Positions 7,871 to 35,487 of a stretch of 35,487 bases of DNA are shown piece after piece (the first letter of the stretch is position 1; every line of letters begins with the position of its first letter). Origin of the DNA: a virus; IMG/VR virus record IMGVR_UViG_3300030430_003920, positions 1-35,487 of that record. The stretch is one strand, 5' to 3'. The notes under the pieces are model-generated. The model did not search any database. It saw only the letters and a list, made by a program, of their open reading frames with translations, and had not been told where the DNA came from. Both the position numbers and the translations under genes were made by a program.

Positions 7871-7890
7871 GGTTGCAAATGGTTGCAAAT
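7871..7890 (+). repeat. Tandem 10-bp repeat GGTTGCAAAT x2, left arm of attP
   Basis: Two perfect copies of GGTTGCAAAT lie head to tail. The same pair, with one changed base, lies in the same orientation at 8064-8083 on the other side of the tRNA-like core. Direct repeats flanking a core next to an integrase gene are the usual layout of arm-type integrase binding sites. Confidence 0.7.
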
Positions 7891-7903
7891 ACCATTCATT
7901 TAC

Positions 7904-7919
7904 ATGCATTTTTGTGCAT
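7904..7919. promoter_or_regulatory. Operator-like inverted repeat ATGCA-N6-TGCAT beside attP
   Basis: ATGCATTTTTGTGCAT is an inverted repeat of ATGCA with a 6-base spacer. The reverse complement of the immunity-region site 10046-10061 is ATGCATATTTGTGCAT, so the two differ at a single base. It lies between the left arm repeats and the terminator. A repressor, Cro or Xis could bind both sites. Confidence 0.55.
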
Positions 7920-7944
7920 ATTTGGTTAAAATACTGTAAAACAA

Positions 7945-7969
7945 AAAACCCACTAAAATCAGTGGGTTT
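7945..7969. terminator. Rho-independent terminator between late operon and attP
   Basis: AAAACCCACT pairs with AGTGGGTTT around an AAAATC loop. Read leftward, the stem is followed by a T-rich run (GGGTTTTTTGT), a good terminator for integrase transcripts. Read rightward the tail is only GGGTTTCTCG, so termination of the late operon would be weaker. It probably serves both converging transcription units. Confidence 0.75.
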
Positions 7970-7988
7970 CTCGTCAAGAAATTGCAAG

Positions 7989-8035
7989 TAGCGGAGGAGG
8001 GACTTGAACCCCCGACACGTGGATTATGATTCCAC
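7989..8035 (-). other. attP: attP core: 3' half of an elongator tRNA-Met (CAT)
   Basis: On the minus strand, 8035 to 7989 reads as an anticodon stem GTGGA/TCCAC around the loop ATCATAA (anticodon CAT), then variable loop GTGTC, then a T-arm GGGGG-TTCAAGT-CCCTC, then the acceptor strand CTCCGCT and discriminator A. CCA is not encoded (CTT follows). The expected 5' acceptor strand and a proper D-arm are not present upstream (only a GGTAAACTA remnant), so this is not a complete tRNA gene. Flanking arm repeats and the adjacent integrase make it the attachment core that restores the host tRNA gene on integration. Confidence 0.75.
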
Positions 8036-8063
8036 TAGTTTACCGAGGATAACGCTCCTTTTT

Positions 8064-8083
8064 GGTTGCAAATGGTTGCAAAG
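8064..8083 (+). repeat. Tandem 10-bp repeat GGTTGCAAAT/GGTTGCAAAG, right arm of attP
   Basis: This is the second copy of the tandem TTGCAA element, between the tRNA-like core and the end of the integrase gene. It is in the same orientation as the copy at 7871-7890, as expected for arm-type sites. Confidence 0.7.
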
Positions 8084-8113: not shown

Positions 8114-9250
8114 TTACGCTACCCCCATCTTACGATTAAACGCATCATCTACACTATTATTAATCCTATCCATTGTAGTGTGTGATACTGGAGCATAATT
8201 ATTTTTTACTACTGATTTCGTAGTATCGCCAATAGCGTAGCCAGCAAGCTGTATATCGCCGTTTTCTTCTTCAGCCAACTGTGCCTTCAACCTACGTAAA
8301 TCATGGCACGTAAAATCAATTTCAGTGATACTGCTAATCTCTGCAATCATCTTGTTTAGCTTTTTATATGCGAAGGGTAATGGCCTGTCATTACCTTGAT
8401 CTTTCCATTTACGCAGTATGTCCATTACAACCGGGTGCTGCTTGGCAAATTTGCGCGATTTCTTACGTTTTGGCAAAACGCTAATAGTGCGCTCATTAAA
8501 ATCAATATGATGCCACTGTAACTCTTTATCACGGTTTAAATAGTTATATCCAACCAGCTCTGTAGCTCTTGCACCAGTATATAAATATAACCGCAATAAA
8601 TCATGCTGAAACTCATTAAGATTAGGATGATTAAACAGTGTCAATATTTCTTGATCTTCCCAGACTTTAAATTCTGAATCTGGTGTTTCAGATGCATTGT
8701 ATTTGTCATTCTTTGTAACCACTTCAAAATTAACCATACCGCGGCCTTGCGCGCCGCCATTGGTTAATGCCCACATAAATATGCAGCGCAAATCACGTAA
8801 ATAACTGTTAATGCCATTCCGGGTACAGAAGTGATCCCGGTAAGCTTTATAAATCTCCCAGCCTTGTTTACGGCCAGTTTTCATATCTCGATACATACCG
8901 CGAATACTTTCTACTGGTGTTTCTGGTGGAAACACTTCTAACGCACTTTTCATTACTGCTCTATATCTATTGCATGTTAGTTCGTTTGTTTTATTTGCTA
9001 ATACATTGTCTTCGTATGCATTAAACACATGCTGTATGGTAATGACTTCGTCTACTTGATGATACAGTGATTTCCACTGGGGATTACCGTTTTTGCGCCA
9101 TGTTTCAATCAAGTTCCACTTTTGCTCTGCTTCATCTGCTTTGCTTTGCGCGGAATACGATTCGCTTTTCCAGCTACCGCTTACTGGATCTTTATAGCGA
9201 ACTACGTATTTATTTTTTTTGCGGTCGTTTCTTTGGTATTGTGATGCCAT
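8114..9250 (-). CDS. int: Tyrosine recombinase (phage integrase)
   Basis: This 378-residue protein would integrate and excise the phage at the tRNA-Met site. The N-terminal 60 residues are a basic arm-binding-type region (RNDRKKNKYVVRYKDP), followed by a helical core-binding domain. The catalytic domain shows Arg228 in YTGARATEL, a Lys-rich beta turn at 261-267, His316-x-x-Arg319 in CHDLRR, and Tyr352 in KNNYAPVS as probable nucleophile. The usual His of the LGH motif is not evident: the sequence there is AGYAIGD. The gene lies next to attP and is read toward it. GGAAGACAAC precedes the ATG. It follows the repressor on the same strand with a 30-base gap. Confidence 0.93.
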   Translation of the reverse strand: MASQYQRNDRKKNKYVVRYKDPVSGSWKSESYSAQSKADEAEQKWNLIETWRKNGNPQWKSLYHQVDEVITIQHVFNAYEDNVLANKTNELTCNRYRAVMKSALEVFPPETPVESIRGMYRDMKTGRKQGWEIYKAYRDHFCTRNGINSYLRDLRCIFMWALTNGGAQGRGMVNFEVVTKNDKYNASETPDSEFKVWEDQEILTLFNHPNLNEFQHDLLRLYLYTGARATELVGYNYLNRDKELQWHHIDFNERTISVLPKRKKSRKFAKQHPVVMDILRKWKDQGNDRPLPFAYKKLNKMIAEISSITEIDFTCHDLRRLKAQLAEEENGDIQLAGYAIGDTTKSVVKNNYAPVSHTTMDRINNSVDDAFNRKMGVA

Positions 9251-9280: not shown

Positions 9281-10018
9281 TTAAGATTTGCCTTCTATAT
9301 CTCCGTTTACCCAGTAATAGTAGGCGCGGACTACTCCTTCTTCTTTTGAATGATAAGATTCAATATTATACATTTTGTATGCACCATCCTTTGCAGCCCA
9401 ATATATGTGATTCCATATATTATGTGAAAATGATGGTATTTCTTCTGGTATGCTAGACATAAGTTGCTCCAATGATTTTGGATGATACATTTTCATCCAT
9501 TCTTCAGTGCTTAAATTGCATAATTCATCTATAGTAAATCCGGTCATTGACACATCACCTTCTATTTTTACATTAGAGTATAAACCAGTATTATGATCAT
9601 AGTCAGATTTAGACTTAAAATGATAAGCTGGTTTATTTTTTAAAGATTTTTGGGCTTTGACAATGTTTTTTAATTTTTGTATGTCATTGTCTAATCTCTC
9701 TATTTTTTCTTCTTGAAGCTTTATAGTTTTGCTTTGAGCTTCAATAGTGTATGATTCCATATCATCTCCTTTACTTGGTTTGTGGTGAATCAAATCAAAG
9801 CCGTCAGCGTGCTTTTCAATATCATACCCTAGTTTTGTAGAGACAGCTTGAAATGATTTTTGTTGTACATTTTTGGCATTGCCATTTAACCAGCGATATA
9901 GCTGTGAACGAGTAATGCCTGTTATAGATTCTAAATCGGTCATATTGTACCCATACATATCCATTGCTTCTTTTAGTATAAATACAACCGCATCGTGTTT
10001 TGTTGTGAATTTTGTCAT
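9281..10018 (-). CDS. CI-like repressor with N-terminal helix-turn-helix
   Basis: I start this at the ATG at 10018 (245 residues), preceded by AAGGATAGAC, the leader also used by other leftward genes here. Residues 1-70 form a Cro/C1-type HTH (DLESITGITRSQLYRWLNG). A charged coiled coil follows (about residues 95-125), then a C-terminal domain that I do not recognise. No S24 peptidase Ser/Lys motif is visible, so RecA-stimulated self-cleavage is not supported. It is divergent from the Cro-like gene across an operator-containing gap and upstream of integrase, the classic lysogeny arrangement. A strong internal ribosome site could also yield a 159-residue C-terminal form (see 9758). Confidence 0.8.
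   Translation of the reverse strand: MTKFTTKHDAVVFILKEAMDMYGYNMTDLESITGITRSQLYRWLNGNAKNVQQKSFQAVSTKLGYDIEKHADGFDLIHHKPSKGDDMESYTIEAQSKTIKLQEEKIERLDNDIQKLKNIVKAQKSLKNKPAYHFKSKSDYDHNTGLYSNVKIEGDVSMTGFTIDELCNLSTEEWMKMYHPKSLEQLMSSIPEEIPSFSHNIWNHIYWAAKDGAYKMYNIESYHSKEEGVVRAYYYWVNGDIEGKS
9758..9775 (-). promoter_or_regulatory. Internal ribosome-binding site and ATG within the repressor gene
   Basis: On the minus strand AGTAAAGGAGATGAT precedes an in-frame ATG at 9760 (MESYTIEAQ...). The spacing is near ideal and the site is better than that of the full-length start. The bases upstream (TTGATTCACCACAA) nearly repeat the true intergenic leader of the integrase gene (TTAATTCACCACAA). Initiation here would make a 159-residue protein, 9760 to 9281, with the coiled coil and C-terminal domain but no HTH. 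Confidence 0.5.
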
Positions 10019-10042
10019 GTCTATCCTTATTTGACTACACAA

Positions 10043-10070
10043 ATTATGCACAAATATGCATAAATGCAAA
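10043..10070 (-). promoter_or_regulatory. Leftward repressor promoter (predicted)
   Basis: On the minus strand, TTTGCA (10065-10070) and CATAAT (10043-10048) are separated by 16 bases, and transcription would start about 18 bases before the repressor ATG. The promoter overlaps the ATGCA-N6-TGCAT site, which would allow autoregulation. The -35 element is only a partial match. Confidence 0.45.
10046..10061. promoter_or_regulatory. Operator-like inverted repeat in the repressor/Cro gap
   Basis: ATGCACAAATATGCAT is an inverted repeat of ATGCA with a 6-base spacer; a further ATGCA half-site follows at 10064. It lies inside the predicted leftward promoter and upstream of the rightward one. A near-identical site lies beside attP at 7904. 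Confidence 0.6.
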
Positions 10071-10097
10071 TTTAATACTTGTAAAAACATTTATAAT
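10070..10097 (+). promoter_or_regulatory. Rightward early promoter (predicted)
   Basis: A perfect TATAAT (10092-10097) lies 20 bases before the Cro-like ATG. The best -35 candidate, ATTTAA at 10070-10075 with a 16-base spacer, is poor, so an activator or reliance on the -10 alone is possible. The 5' untranslated region would be only about 13 bases. Confidence 0.45.
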
Positions 10098-10116: not shown

Positions 10117-10338
10117 ATGGCATACACAAAAGCAACACACAACCAGTGGACAATACCACAACTAATGCAAGAATTTGGTTATAGCTTGCGTGATCTAGAA
10201 CCACTTACTGGGTATAGTGCCAGTATGTTGTGTCGGTTATTTAAAGGCGAAAGAAGAATTAAAGTAAAGCATAAACAGATACTATCTAAAGTATTTCAAA
10301 TTGAAGAGAATAATATAATATGGCCAACAATCAAGTAG
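10117..10338 (+). CDS. Cro-like helix-turn-helix repressor
   Basis: This 73-residue protein is almost entirely one HTH domain. GYSLRDLEPLTGYSASMLCR aligns with the repressor segment GYNMTDLESITGITRSQLYR, and KVKHKQILSKVFQIE with the following helix, so the two regulators are paralogues. It is the first gene of the rightward early operon, divergent from the repressor. By analogy it represses the lysogeny promoter. There is no good Shine-Dalgarno before ATG 10117 and the leader is very short. It overlaps the next gene by 19 bases. Confidence 0.75.
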   Translation: MAYTKATHNQWTIPQLMQEFGYSLRDLEPLTGYSASMLCRLFKGERRIKVKHKQILSKVFQIEENNIIWPTIK

Positions 10339-10532
10339 GCTGGATGACTATACAACAAGCTGCTATTTATCTTGGAGTATCTGAGCGTGGTTTAAAATAT
10401 GCAGTAAAGCTAAAAAAAGAAAATAGAGCAAATCATAGTCTGATATTAAAAAGCTACGGTAATCGCACACTTATAAAGAAAAAAAGTATTGATGACACTG
10501 AAAACATTACAATTACAGCTCCGCAAAACTAG
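10320..10532 (+). CDS. Excisionase-like small DNA-binding protein
   Basis: This 70-residue protein begins with WMTIQQAAIYLGVSERGLKYAV, the signature of the excisionase/MerR-type winged helix (HTH_17), and continues with a basic segment and RTLIKKKSID, matching the wing and the usual end of that domain. It overlaps the Cro-like gene in another frame. Xis activity (directing excision at attP) is the natural guess, but proteins of this family also serve as transcription factors. The ATG is preceded only by AATAATAT, so translation is probably coupled. Confidence 0.6.
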   Translation: MANNQVGWMTIQQAAIYLGVSERGLKYAVKLKKENRANHSLILKSYGNRTLIKKKSIDDTENITITAPQN

Positions 10533-17637: not shown

Positions 17638-18588
17638 CTAATGAATTGGAATCAATATTTTTACGTCTTTAAAACGCTCTATATTACCGCACGCGTGCGG
17701 GTTTTCTTTAATAAGCGTACATTCGCCGCATTTACCCGGGCAAATAAACGTTTTGCGGCTGTTTACTTGCTGTTTTATATCGCGGCGCTGTGCTGGTGTA
17801 AGTTTGTTTTCTTTCCATGCTTTGAGCGTGTCTTTTGTAGTGTTTACCGCGATAAACTCGCCGCGTGTTATACTCATGTTTTTAACATAGTCAAATACCG
17901 GGCCGTTTTGATACATTCCGCCGCTACTTAAGTTGAGCGCGTAATTTGTGGGCCACTTATACCCGCTTTCATCTAGCTCTTTGAATAGGTGCAAGCTCTT
18001 GCTGTAACCGTACGCTTTTAGCTGTGGAAACTTCTTTAGTGTATTCATCCAAAAGCGCAAGCCTTGGACGCTTGCGAAATCCCCATCAACGTACAACCTA
18101 AACGGTACATTTTGGCCGCGAAATTTGCGCGTATTTAGCAAGTTTTTTAATTCAGCGTGAATAAGTCCGCGGTAAGCTGGTGAGCGTTCTATTAATGTGT
18201 TTTGTAGCTGCCTAAAAAGCGGGGGGGCGTTACGCCACGCTTTTAAACTATAACAAAACCCTTTTGCAGCTAGCCAGCATTCTAAAGCACCGGGGCAATT
18301 GAAGCCGGGAAGAGTACTCCAGCTTAAAAAGGGTAATTTGGCGTTTTTAAATGCGAACATACTAAACGGCGTTATAATTGCGTCTTTTATTGGTGCTTTT
18401 AACCAGTCTAGTATTTTAACCGCGCCCGCTTCCCACGCCGGTTTATTTATGTCATAAGCGCGGGCGATGATGTTTAATAGTGGTTGTAATAGCGCCGCGG
18501 GTTTAAAGTTATTGCGGGCCATCGTTGTTAATTGCGCGGTGATAAATGCGCGGTTCATTGTTTGTGGTGTTGTCTTCTGTTTTTTCAT
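17638..18588 (-). CDS. GP88-family protein (probable iron-sulphur protein)
   Basis: This 316-residue protein matches the pattern of the phage gene-88 family. FNCPGALECWLAAKGFCYS carries Cys98, 104 and 112. RLYVDGDFAS (165-173), KAYGYSKSLHLF (191-202) and NLSSGG (219-224) are the central conserved motifs. The C-terminus has Cys283, 287, 290 and 300 (FICPGKCGECTL). Clustered Cys suggest an iron-sulphur cluster, and the fold is thought to be related to radical or redox enzymes, but the biochemical role is unknown. It is the main gene of a leftward operon. Its leader, AAAAAAGGCTAGAC, is a variant of the operon's common ribosome site. Confidence 0.7.
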   Translation of the reverse strand: MKKQKTTPQTMNRAFITAQLTTMARNNFKPAALLQPLLNIIARAYDINKPAWEAGAVKILDWLKAPIKDAIITPFSMFAFKNAKLPFLSWSTLPGFNCPGALECWLAAKGFCYSLKAWRNAPPLFRQLQNTLIERSPAYRGLIHAELKNLLNTRKFRGQNVPFRLYVDGDFASVQGLRFWMNTLKKFPQLKAYGYSKSLHLFKELDESGYKWPTNYALNLSSGGMYQNGPVFDYVKNMSITRGEFIAVNTTKDTLKAWKENKLTPAQRRDIKQQVNSRKTFICPGKCGECTLIKENPHACGNIERFKDVKILIPIH

Positions 18589-19150: not shown

Positions 19151-19168
19151 GGTTGTTTGTTGCTTAAA

Positions 19169-19195
19169 TGTATAGTATTGTTGCTTATTTGTCAA
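19169..19195 (-). promoter_or_regulatory. Leftward promoter of the GP88 operon (predicted)
   Basis: On the minus strand a consensus TTGACA (19190-19195) is followed at 15 bases by TATACA (19169-19174), or at 17 bases by TACATT (19167-19172). Transcription would start roughly 40 bases before the first gene. The -35 lies in a 14-base sequence repeated at 19423-19436. Confidence 0.65.
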
Positions 19196-19201
19196 CACTT
19201 A
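19188..19201 (-). repeat. 14-bp repeat TAAGTGTTGACAAA, copy 1
   Basis: An exact second copy lies at 19423-19436 on the same strand, 235 bases away. Copy 1 contains the -35 of the leftward promoter. Copy 2 has no good -10, so the sequence may be a protein-binding site rather than only a promoter element. Confidence 0.6.
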
Positions 19202-19270
19202 AAACAACGATTACACGGCGCCGACCAAATCAAAAAGAAATGAAACGGCGAACCCGGTCCGCTTGCAATG

Positions 19271-19290
19271 ATTTGCAACCCCTTGCAACC
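19271..19290 (-). repeat. Third tandem TTGCAA element, in the divergent control region
   Basis: On the minus strand this reads GGTTGCAAGG GGTTGCAAAT, matching the attP arm repeats at 18 of 20 positions. A further weaker unit (CATTGCAAGC in the same orientation) continues at 19261-19270 with the same 10-base spacing. It lies between the leftward promoter and the rightward late promoter. Confidence 0.65.
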
Positions 19291-19317
19291 AGCTTAGAAT
19301 TTCACGTCGGGCGACCC

Positions 19318-19345
19318 TTGGATAAACTATCCACCGTCTTATAAT
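19318..19345 (+). promoter_or_regulatory. Rightward late promoter (predicted)
   Basis: TTGGAT (19318-19323) and a perfect TATAAT (19340-19345) are separated by 16 bases. It would transcribe the terminase and structural genes with a leader of about 110 bases. That leader contains an imperfect hairpin (ACACTA 19365-19370 with TAGTGT 19394-19399) and a run of eight T beginning nine bases later. Confidence 0.5.
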
Positions 19346-19422: not shown

Positions 19423-19436
19423 TTTGTCAACACTTA
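19423..19436 (-). repeat. 14-bp repeat TAAGTGTTGACAAA, copy 2
   Basis: Identical to 19188-19201. It lies 24 bases before the first late gene, within the late leader, oriented leftward. A TTGACA hexamer is present, but the best -10 at 17 bases is only TTTATG. Confidence 0.6.
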
Positions 19437-19460
19437 CTGTGTGTATTTTCTGTAGCTTGT

Positions 19461-19802
19461 ATGGACAAACAATGGCATAACTTATCAGATGGCGATGCCG
19501 ACATACTATCAGATGCTATAGTTCAGAGCGAAGAATACGCCGCCAAACTTGCAGTTTTTCGCAGTGGCTTAATCCCGCCAAAAGATCGCTGGTTACAAAT
19601 CAGCGCTCACGACATTTATGACAAGCTTAGTGAACGTGAGCTAGCTGTATTTGAGCTACGCACACTGCAACATACATTTCCGGTAATTGCAGATGCTCTA
19701 GAGATCAGCGTATCCAGTGCCAAAACATATTGGCGACGCTGCCTTGCTAAATGCAACAAGGCTTTTATGTCAACCAACGATGGTAATAATGATGGGTGTT
19801 AA
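19461..19802 (+). CDS. Sigma-like / LuxR-like helix-turn-helix protein
   Basis: This 113-residue protein ends in a DNA-binding segment, LSERELAVFELRTLQHTF followed by VIADALEISVSSAKTYWRR, that reads like sigma-70 region 4 or a LuxR-type HTH. The N-terminal half is acidic. It is the first gene of the late operon, overlapping the terminase small subunit by 23 bases. It could be a late-gene activator or an accessory packaging protein. The ribosome site is weak. Confidence 0.6.
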   Translation: MDKQWHNLSDGDADILSDAIVQSEEYAAKLAVFRSGLIPPKDRWLQISAHDIYDKLSERELAVFELRTLQHTFPVIADALEISVSSAKTYWRRCLAKCNKAFMSTNDGNNDGC

Positions 19803-20196
19803 ATACGATATAGATGGAGAAAAGGTTCGCATGCTTGCGAGCTTTGGTTGCTCCTACAACGACATTGGTAAATACTACCAGTGCAGCGAAAGCGTAATAC
19901 GCAAGCGATTCCGCGCAGAATACGAAGGTGGCAGAGAAGAACTCAAGCTTTCTTTGAGAAAAAATTTAATAAAAATGAGCCTTGAGGACCAAAACACCAG
20001 TGCGAGCATCTTCCTCGCTAAAAATTTTCTTGGCATGAGCGACAAGACCGCAGTAGACCTAACTGGAAACATCGAAAGCGTACTCAAGGAGTGCGGCTTT
20101 GAGGAGAATCCAATTGATCAAGCAGATAATCAACAGAGAGAAGCTCTGGCAGCTCTTGGGGTATCACCCGACACCACACCAACGGCGAATACATAG
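19780..20196 (+). CDS. terS: Terminase small subunit
   Basis: I take ATG 19780 (138 residues); ATGs at 19789 and 19792 are equally possible, and none has a clear ribosome site. The N-terminal HTH (VRMLASFGCSYNDIGKYYQCSESVIRKRFR) followed by LRKNLIKMSLEDQNTSASIFLAKNFLGMSDK is characteristic of phage small terminases: a DNA-recognition domain, then the helical oligomerisation region and its conserved xxLGM motif. It would bind the pac or cos site and regulate the large subunit. It overlaps the large-subunit gene by 83 bases. Confidence 0.85.
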   Translation: MVIMMGVKYDIDGEKVRMLASFGCSYNDIGKYYQCSESVIRKRFRAEYEGGREELKLSLRKNLIKMSLEDQNTSASIFLAKNFLGMSDKTAVDLTGNIESVLKECGFEENPIDQADNQQREALAALGVSPDTTPTANT

Positions 20197-21450
20197 TAGT
20201 AAAAAGAGATTTCGCGTTTGCAATCTTGGTAGACGTAGTGGCAAATCGTATTTAGCGGCCCATGAAATCATACCGTGGCTTTTGACACCTAACACGCGTG
20301 GCTGGATTGTAGCTCCCAGTTACAACCTAGCTCAAAAAGTTGCCAGAGAGGTCAAGCGAATTGTTATTCGTGAACTAAAACTACCCTTAGAAAGCAAAAA
20401 AGAAGTCAATGGCGACTTATACTTTATGCGCCTATCCGGTCTAAACTCAGAATTAGCAGTAAAATCTGCGGATTCACCTGAGAGTTTGATCGGTGAAGGT
20501 ATTTGACCCGGAAGGGTCACTTTTAAAATATCGATTACTTAGTTATAGATGAGATGGCATTAATCAGCCGTCAGACATATGAAATGTTTTTAAGACCTAC
20601 CCTAGCAGATAGGCAAGGCTGGGCGTTATTCTGTTCTACCCCCAGATCCTACAATTATTTTTATAAACTGTATGAAATGGGGCAAAGCAAAAAGTACCCA
20701 GATTGGGAAAGCTGGCAAGTACCTAGCTGGGAGTCGCCATTTTTTAAAGATGACATTGAACAACTAAAAAGGACATTAACTCGTGAAACATTTCTACAAG
20801 AAATCGGAGCTGAATTTGTCTCATTTGCGGGATCTGTATTCAACTTCGATCGCTTTACCCAAGTTAAAAAAAGACTCAAGTACAACCCGGAGCTACCTAC
20901 CTATGTGGGAATTGACCCGGGTTACAGGACATCTTGTGCAGTGGTACTCCAGTGTAAAAACTACCCCGACAGGCTATCAGATCTGTACCAAATAGACGAA
21001 ATATTTTTAGAAAACAGCAAAACGGAAGATCTGGCTAAACTGATTAAAGGATTACCATATCCAATTACTGCGTATTTTGGGGATCCAGCGGGATTGGGTT
21101 CAAACTTGCAAACCGGAATCAGTGATTACCAAGTATTTGCACGTCAATACGGAATACGAGTTCGTTGTAGAAAGGACAAGCAGAGCCGTGATGTGGTAAA
21201 TCGCATTAGTCATATGCGACGCTGGTTTGAAGATGCCAATGGCGACACACATTTTTTTGTAGCTGAACGTTGCAAGAAGTCGATTAGTAGTTATGAAAAC
21301 TATCGCTATCCGACACACAAGGAAGACCAGCAACTACGCGAAGTCCCACTTAAAGATGGAATCAATGATCACATAAACGATTGCTTGGGTTTCATCCTTG
21401 TAAACTTATTTCCTATTAAAAGTAGAACAGCTGGCATAATCGAGTGGTAA
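20114..21450 (+). CDS. terL: Terminase large subunit, interrupted by a 29-nt bypass-like insert
   Basis: This is the packaging motor and headful or cos nuclease. TTG 20114 is the likely start, seven bases after AGGAG. The first frame (20114-20503, 130 residues) has Walker A NLGRRSGKS and ends SPESLIGEGI, then TGA. The second frame resumes at GAT 20533 as DYLVIDEMALISR: the Walker B Asp136-Glu137 directly follows in the family pattern. The nuclease domain carries Asp258 in GIDPG, Asp314 in FGDPAG and Asp409/Asp413 in INDHINDC. Joined, it is 435 residues, a normal size. Restart at the first ATG of the second frame (20554) would lose Walker B, so two separate proteins would not rebuild the ATPase. 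See 20504-20532. Confidence 0.85.
20504..20532 (+). other. 29-nt hairpin insert in terL, candidate translational bypass element
   Basis: The insert follows ATT (Ile130). It begins TGACCC-GGAA-GGGTCA, a perfect 6-bp hairpin closed by a GNRA-type tetraloop with the TGA stop in its 5' arm. It continues with an A/T-rich stretch and ends with ATC at 20530-20532, also Ile and read by the same tRNA-Ile(GAU). All frames are closed: TGA 20504 and TAG 20540, TAA 20524, TGA 20550. TATT 20500-20503 can pair with AATA 20527-20530, bringing take-off and landing codons together. Confidence 0.75.
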
Positions 21451-35360: not shown

Positions 35361-35487
35361 AAGTAAAAAAGAAAGACAAAGTTGGCATGATACCAAAGCA
35401 TAGTAGCCATTCTGGATTAAGCAGAGAAGCTTGGTCCAAATTAAACGAAGGTAAGTCTGTATCGCTAGAATTCATCCCAGAAATGGC
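35357..35487 (+). CDS. 5' part of a small protein gene that crosses the window ends
   Basis: ATG 35357 lies in ATGA overlap with the tail-terminator gene. The frame begins MKVKKKDKVGMIPKHSS and runs off the window; it continues at bases 2-136 through the shared terminal sequence to give 55 residues. Confidence 0.8.
   Translation, partial: MKVKKKDKVGMIPKHSSHSGLSREAWSKLNEGKSVSLEFIPEM
35390..35487. repeat. 98-base terminal overlap (circular contig)
   Basis: These bases equal 2-99 exactly. Base 1 is T where base 35389 is G. One gene reads cleanly across the join, and no coding sequence is repeated, so this is most simply an assembly overlap of a circular or circularly permuted genome of about 35,388 bp rather than a true terminal repeat. 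Confidence 0.85.

Follow-up and report, generated by a model that had tools for sequence, protein, structure and literature searches.

The question raised by this locus is why a 20-bp repeat that flanks the attachment site of a phage integrase on both sides should recur in the late region of the same genome, between a leftward and a rightward operon. The DNA analyzed, referred to here as the window, is the whole 35,487-nucleotide stretch of the IMG/VR virus record IMGVR_UViG_3300030430_003920. The best explanation as a whole, which is given a probability of roughly 0.8 from the comparison of sequences, is a second integrase half-site, for which a role in DNA processing is favored, and it is very probable that the integrase performs another task at this late site.

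Genome and sample

The ends of the window overlap at 98 of 99 positions over 99 bp (1-99 vs 35389-35487) though the record is classed as linear, and the window is therefore a complete circular or permuted genome of ~35.4 kb; the ends of several relatives also overlap. The sample consists of metagenomic contigs only, from a phage family with no cultured member in the set, and relatives were fetched by the integrase, terminase, GP88, and sigma-like genes. No phage record with a window-type integrase was found in the search for a cultured relative, and in Pelagibacter phage HTVC111P the terminase is just 31% identical and an integrase is not annotated.

The integrase and its attachment site

The genes and sites of the integration region are as follows.

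7871-7890, plus strand: long-side arm pair of attP, made of two 10-bp units (GGTTGCAAAT) and separated from the core by 129 bp
7989-8035, minus strand: 3' half of tRNA-Met(CAT) within attP, which forms a whole tRNA when combined with the 5' half in contig L005
8019-8035, plus strand: attP core GTGGATTATGATTCCAC, in which the anticodon stem-loop provides two 5-bp half-sites separated by 7 bp
8064-8083, plus strand: attP short-side arm pair, 28 bp from the core
8114-9250, minus strand: lambda-type tyrosine integrase, 378 amino acids, with a predicted beta-beta-beta-alpha N-terminal domain
9281-10090, minus strand: helix-turn-helix (HTH) repressor-like gene, absent from G025, G026, G029, G036, and G037
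10320-10532, plus strand: small HTH_17 protein, Xis candidate, absent from the same five relatives

The catalytic R...HxxR...Y residues of the integrase (R228, H316, R319, and Y352) are invariant in 17 relatives, and the N-terminal arm-binding domain is predicted to contain beta strands at residues 3-6, 15-20, and 27-32 followed by a helix at 35-53, with the Pfam domain Arm-DNA-bind_4 matched in one relative only. The structural model has a pLDDT of 85 and its best fold match is lambda integrase (1z1b). Integrases among the relatives diverge down to 38% identity; the motif box before the catalytic tyrosine reads IGDxT in most of them where LGHxx is usual, and L118 and L119 have LGHTN.

The first-pass annotation had placed a 20-bp repeat (GGTTGCAAATGGTTGCAAAT) at both attP arms and in the late region, and all three copies are present, at 7871-7890 (plus strand, 0 mismatches), 8064-8083 (plus strand, 1 mismatch), and 19271-19290 (minus strand, 2 mismatches); the locations were right, but the copy at 8064 ends in G and not T. 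A match of this quality is expected 0.02 times per window by chance against the three found, and none of 100 shuffled sequences reached three. Exact occurrences of the pattern TTGCAA-N4-TTGCAA are limited to the two attP arm pairs and two positions in the late element (19263 and 19273).

Between the attP arms lies the 3' half of a tRNA-Met(CAT) gene, a point absent from that annotation, so that the core lies in a tRNA with arm sites on either side, as in a lambda-type attP. An exact 45-mer of the tRNA half is found in 21 bacterial contigs, mainly of marine Alphaproteobacteria and Marinimicrobia, and the tRNA half alone suggests a host in one of these groups; no relative of the integrase was found in the bacterial genome collection by a profile scan restricted by two peptide patterns. 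In contigs L005 (4453-4670) and L007 (6541-6750), the attP cassette lies in the opposite orientation with respect to int, in contrast to the window (7871-8083) and L008, and carries the 5' half of tRNA-Met(CAT) where the window has the 3' half. The L005 integrase is 97% identical to that of the window despite the inversion, and the two tRNA halves join to a complete tRNA; one tRNA target thus seems usable in either direction.

A probable second half-site near the terminase genes

The late element sits between the leftward GP88 operon and the rightward operon, whose gene order is sigma-like, HTH, and terminase genes.

17638-18588, minus strand: GP88 (PF17338) gene of the leftward operon
19167-19195, minus strand: promoter-like site of the GP88 operon, TTGACA-17-TACATT, a consensus match only
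19188-19198, plus strand: repeat TTTGTCAACAC, copy 1, probable operator of another regulator
19263-19268, plus strand: third TTGCAA unit of the late element
19271-19290, minus strand: late arm pair GGTTGCAAGGGGTTGCAAAT
19305-19309, minus strand: CGACG motif, 8 bp from the late core; most attP short sides have one at a similar offset (expected by chance in 1.8% of 27-bp stretches)
19318-19334, plus strand: core-type dyad TTGGATAAACTATCCAC
19423-19433, plus strand: repeat TTTGTCAACAC, copy 2
19461-19802, plus strand: sigma-70 region-4-like protein, encoded first in the rightward operon
20099-21450, plus strand: terminase large subunit (TerL), in two frames (20099-20506 and 20554-21450)

The core-type dyad, which had been overlooked earlier, lies 27 bp from the late arms, close to the 28 bp of the attP short side, and because arm pair and dyad have the spacing and orientation of that side, the segment 19271-19334 can be read as an att-like half-site. 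Among the genomes compared, the orientation from arms to core is the same at attP and at the late site in 10/10, and the gap between arms and dyad is 24-27 bp at the late site and 26-28 bp at attP in 9/10. Many contigs that cover only the late region show the same tandem followed by 24-27 bp and a dyad, and at both sites most copies have a CGWCG-type motif at a distance of 5-9 bp from the core. Only one arm pair is present in the late half-site. The third degenerate unit at 10-base spacing, also described in the first-pass annotation, is real in the window, but relatives outside its nearest clade have two units only. Exceptions to the geometry are G018, with a gap of 80 bp, and G057, G036, and G037, whose sites are degenerate, that of G037 to the point of being undetectable by search. 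A co-varying gap in G018 (96 vs 80 bp) is not claimed, since its relatives G053 and G054 have gaps of ~27 bp.

The 7-bp crossover region is TAAACTA at the late site and ATCATAA at attP, and the late sequence varies between clades; a crossover sequence unlike that of attP and attB means that the late site is neither attL nor attR, although it resembles one. It is very likely, judged on these features, that the integrase has a second site at 19271-19334, in the form of an att-like half-site with one arm pair and a core-type dyad in short-side geometry, which selection has kept matched to the specificity of the integrase. The single arm pair, the exceptions in G018, G036, G037, and G057, and the variable crossover sequence weigh against this reading.

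No convincing promoter overlaps the late site, which is clear of both the predicted leftward promoter (19167-19195) and a rightward promoter proposed by eye near 19424-19450; two weak promoter-like matches on the plus strand (19272-19300, 9/12) fall inside the arm pair and do not exceed chance expectation. The repeat TTTGTCAACAC has only two copies in the window, one on either side of the late half-site, and is the probable operator of a phage regulator; relatives have TTTGTGAACAC or TTTGCGAACAC in its place, and in G025 and G037 the repeat is found again upstream of int. Some contigs start at or within ~30 bp of the late dyad (L022:1, L031:1, L032:1, L052:1, L045, and L058), and L022 begins exactly at its crossover region.

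Co-variation of the two sites

The attP of the relatives was located by a search, blind to sequence, for two tandem 19-mers ~193 bp apart, which recovers attP in most records having one; attP of G023 and G024 was read by eye, and none was found in G048. The arms of each phage were then compared with its whole record, and the best match outside attP was the late element, ~1.3 kb upstream of TerL, in 12/12 records containing both regions. The match scores were 19 of 19 in G008 and G015, 18 in G013, 17 in the window, G010, and G054, 16 in G034, and 15 in G018, G053, and G057, with 17/20 in G023 and G024. The arm sequence is fully different between lineages, which fall into the classes TTGCAACC, TTGCAACAG, TTCCACAG, TTGGCACG, TTGTGACA, TGTCAACA (with 11-bp spacing), and TTAGGTACA, and the late element switches along with the arms; when seven class representatives were permuted, the pairing of each attP with its own late element was the best, 1 of 5040. 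The core half-sites also shift jointly at the two sites (TGGA, CGGA, and AGA in G034); the cores were aligned, and several classes assigned, by visual inspection before the counts were taken.

Among 2.9 million viral contigs, nine contain the exact 18-mer TTGCAACCATTTGCAACC, and six of the nine belong to this phage family. In addition, L097 and L166 come from one metagenome, and the late element of L097 is identical to the reverse complement of the L166 attP arms. The terminase tree places L038 and L039 as sisters with different element classes, and likewise L033 differs from L029 and L030, so the element does not track terminase descent. The two sites change together in sequence, spacing, and orientation even among divergent relatives, and the integrase is the only gene of the window whose distribution follows the late site. 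It is therefore very probable that the factor reading the attP arms reads the late element too, which upholds the part of the first-pass proposal that assigned one binding factor to both. Binding of the integrase itself at the late site is inferred from this co-variation.

Distribution among relatives

A whole-genome search by layout alone returned exactly attP and the late site in the window, G008, G010, G013, G015, and G034 and one of the two sites in G023, G024, and G057; it missed G018 and G054 and gave no match in the integrase-less G020, G027, G030, and G033. Among the compared window genes, the integrase alone is present in 13/13 integrase-positive and 0/4 integrase-less genomes (tblastn, 1e-3); as the genome set was defined by the integrase, the informative part is that no other window gene tracks it. 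G025, G026, and G029 are complete by end overlap and keep both the integrase and the half-site, which is weaker in G025 (gap of 20). An attP arm pair or tRNA T-arm was not found in these three or in G036 and G037, a very different attP being conceivable in all five, and searches of the same five genomes for Xis-like and repressor-like genes found none.

Interruption of the terminase gene

TerL is interrupted in its Walker B motif (GEG^IDYLVIDE) at 20496-20553 of the window and likewise, ahead of the TerL match, in L035, L042, L046, and others. Short hairpin inserts with stop codons occur in the TerL of 28/76 relatives and are missing from 48, and several unrelated inserts occupy one common position. 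The flanking codons match in some cases, for example, GGA-TGA-hairpin-GGA in L042 and GGC-TGA-hairpin-GGC in L035, and those of the window are ATT-TGA...ATC. The arrangement is much like translational bypassing in T4 gene 60.

Alternative explanations

Single short elements can arise randomly, and the late element could in principle be a chance similarity or a decayed att remnant; given the low expected frequency in the window and the parallel changes across at least six arm classes, chance is very improbable and the element cannot be a remnant. Another phage protein, Xis-like or repressor, might bind both arm sets instead of the integrase, and such proteins can bind directly repeated sites. 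The arm pairs on both sides of the attP core and the core dyad at integrase geometry point to the integrase instead, and neither candidate gene is present in certain genomes that retain the half-site and the integrase, making this explanation improbable.

The integrase may instead serve as a transcriptional switch, the idea of the first-pass annotation, with the half-site-bound protein repressing or activating the GP88 and late operons. The site does lie between divergent operons with operator-like repeats on either side, and integrase on arm sites represses intS in prophage KplE1 (PMC2951348), but neither promoter is overlapped and a full core dyad would be superfluous for transcription control. 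The specific proposal that integration state controls the late and leftward operons is not supported, since three complete relatives that keep integrase and half-site without a recognizable attP, Xis-like gene, or repressor also argue against it, and such a switch is unlikely. A packaging gate is also unlikely, in which integrase bound next to cos or pac would obstruct or guide terminase, as has been proposed for Tn916 integrase at oriT. The late site adjoins the terminase genes and contig starts cluster there (6 of ~60 contigs start at most ~30 bp from the dyad), and Tn916 integrase is reported, in the account that PMC6540685 gives of Rocco and Churchward (2006), to direct oriT cleavage by Orf20. 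Against a gate, that result is said to need confirmation (PMC6499999), and the overlapping ends of the window and several relatives suggest circular or permuted DNA. The dyad was also considered as cos itself and rejected, since integrase-less relatives lack it yet keep the rest of the region; it is thus not the packaging site itself.

Proposed role in DNA processing

A second integrase half-site with a role in DNA processing, whether recombination between copies, circularization, or packaging, is therefore favored. In the proposed mechanism, the N-terminal domain of the integrase would hold the arm pair and the catalytic domain would engage the dyad, an arrangement like that at a single end of attP. 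In the tyrosine integrase class, homology rules mean that differing crossover sequences preclude ordinary exchange, and neither attP nor the tRNA gene should accordingly be a recombination partner of the late site. The late site would pair only with its own copy, whether within a dimer or concatemer or on a second genome, and would act like a resolution or circularization site beside the packaging genes in lytic growth, independently of lysogeny. Recombination of the dyad with other sequences was rejected, as alternative junctions at the late dyad were not found among viral contigs; this result counts against the proposal, although recombination of copy with copy would leave none.

The persistence of the half-site without lysogeny genes argues for a lytic role and, together with the lack of a convincing promoter overlap, ranks recombination between late-site copies (resolution or circularization) first, followed by transcription and then the packaging gate, although even this leading function is proposed tentatively and at less than even odds. 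More tentative still is the suggestion that the integrase recombines half-site copies independently of lysogeny and that lineages apparently lacking attP keep it solely for that purpose.

Comparison with known systems

The integration region is like the lambda-type system of tyrosine integrase, attP, attL, and attR in its arm and core contacts, 10-bp spaced arm pairs, tRNA anticodon core, and fold match, but differs in that an additional half-site, with a distinct crossover sequence, lies ~11 kb away next to the terminase genes. In phage P1, a loxP site near the packaging region allows Cre to circularize DNA and resolve dimers; the late site would similarly be a recombinase site near the packaging region, with recombination there putative, whereas loxP has no arm sites and Cre is no integrase. 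The late site adjoins the terminase genes and contig starts cluster at it, but contig ends overlap at other places too. The transpositional enhancer of phage Mu is an internal operator-region site between divergent promoters that is bound by the transposase N-terminal domain. The late site would be a comparable internal site for a recombinase N-terminal domain, with binding here putative, but Mu uses a DDE transposase and has no core-type dyad.

The integrases of prophage KplE1 (IntS) and phage P4 (Int) autoregulate transcription through arm sites at int's own promoter (PMC2951348). The late site likewise suggests an integrase acting via arm sites as more than a recombinase; the KplE1 and P4 sites belong to attL over the int promoter, whereas the site described here is separate, away from int, and shows no convincing promoter overlap of the kind expected for a KplE1-type operator. 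Similarly, the action of Tn916 integrase at oriT, as relayed in PMC6540685 (Rocco and Churchward, 2006) and in need of confirmation (PMC6499999), would be at a DNA-processing locus away from att, but one that serves conjugation and not packaging.

Implications

A second att-like half-site in a phage genome is without report in the open-access literature searched, which includes few subscription journals. The paired, co-varying arm sites provide a natural series for how integrase N-terminal domains read DNA. For those members of this marine phage family that carry an integrase gene without an evident integration site or repressor, the second site gives a testable reason for keeping it, and if this reading is true, an integrase gene would not be proof of a temperate life style.
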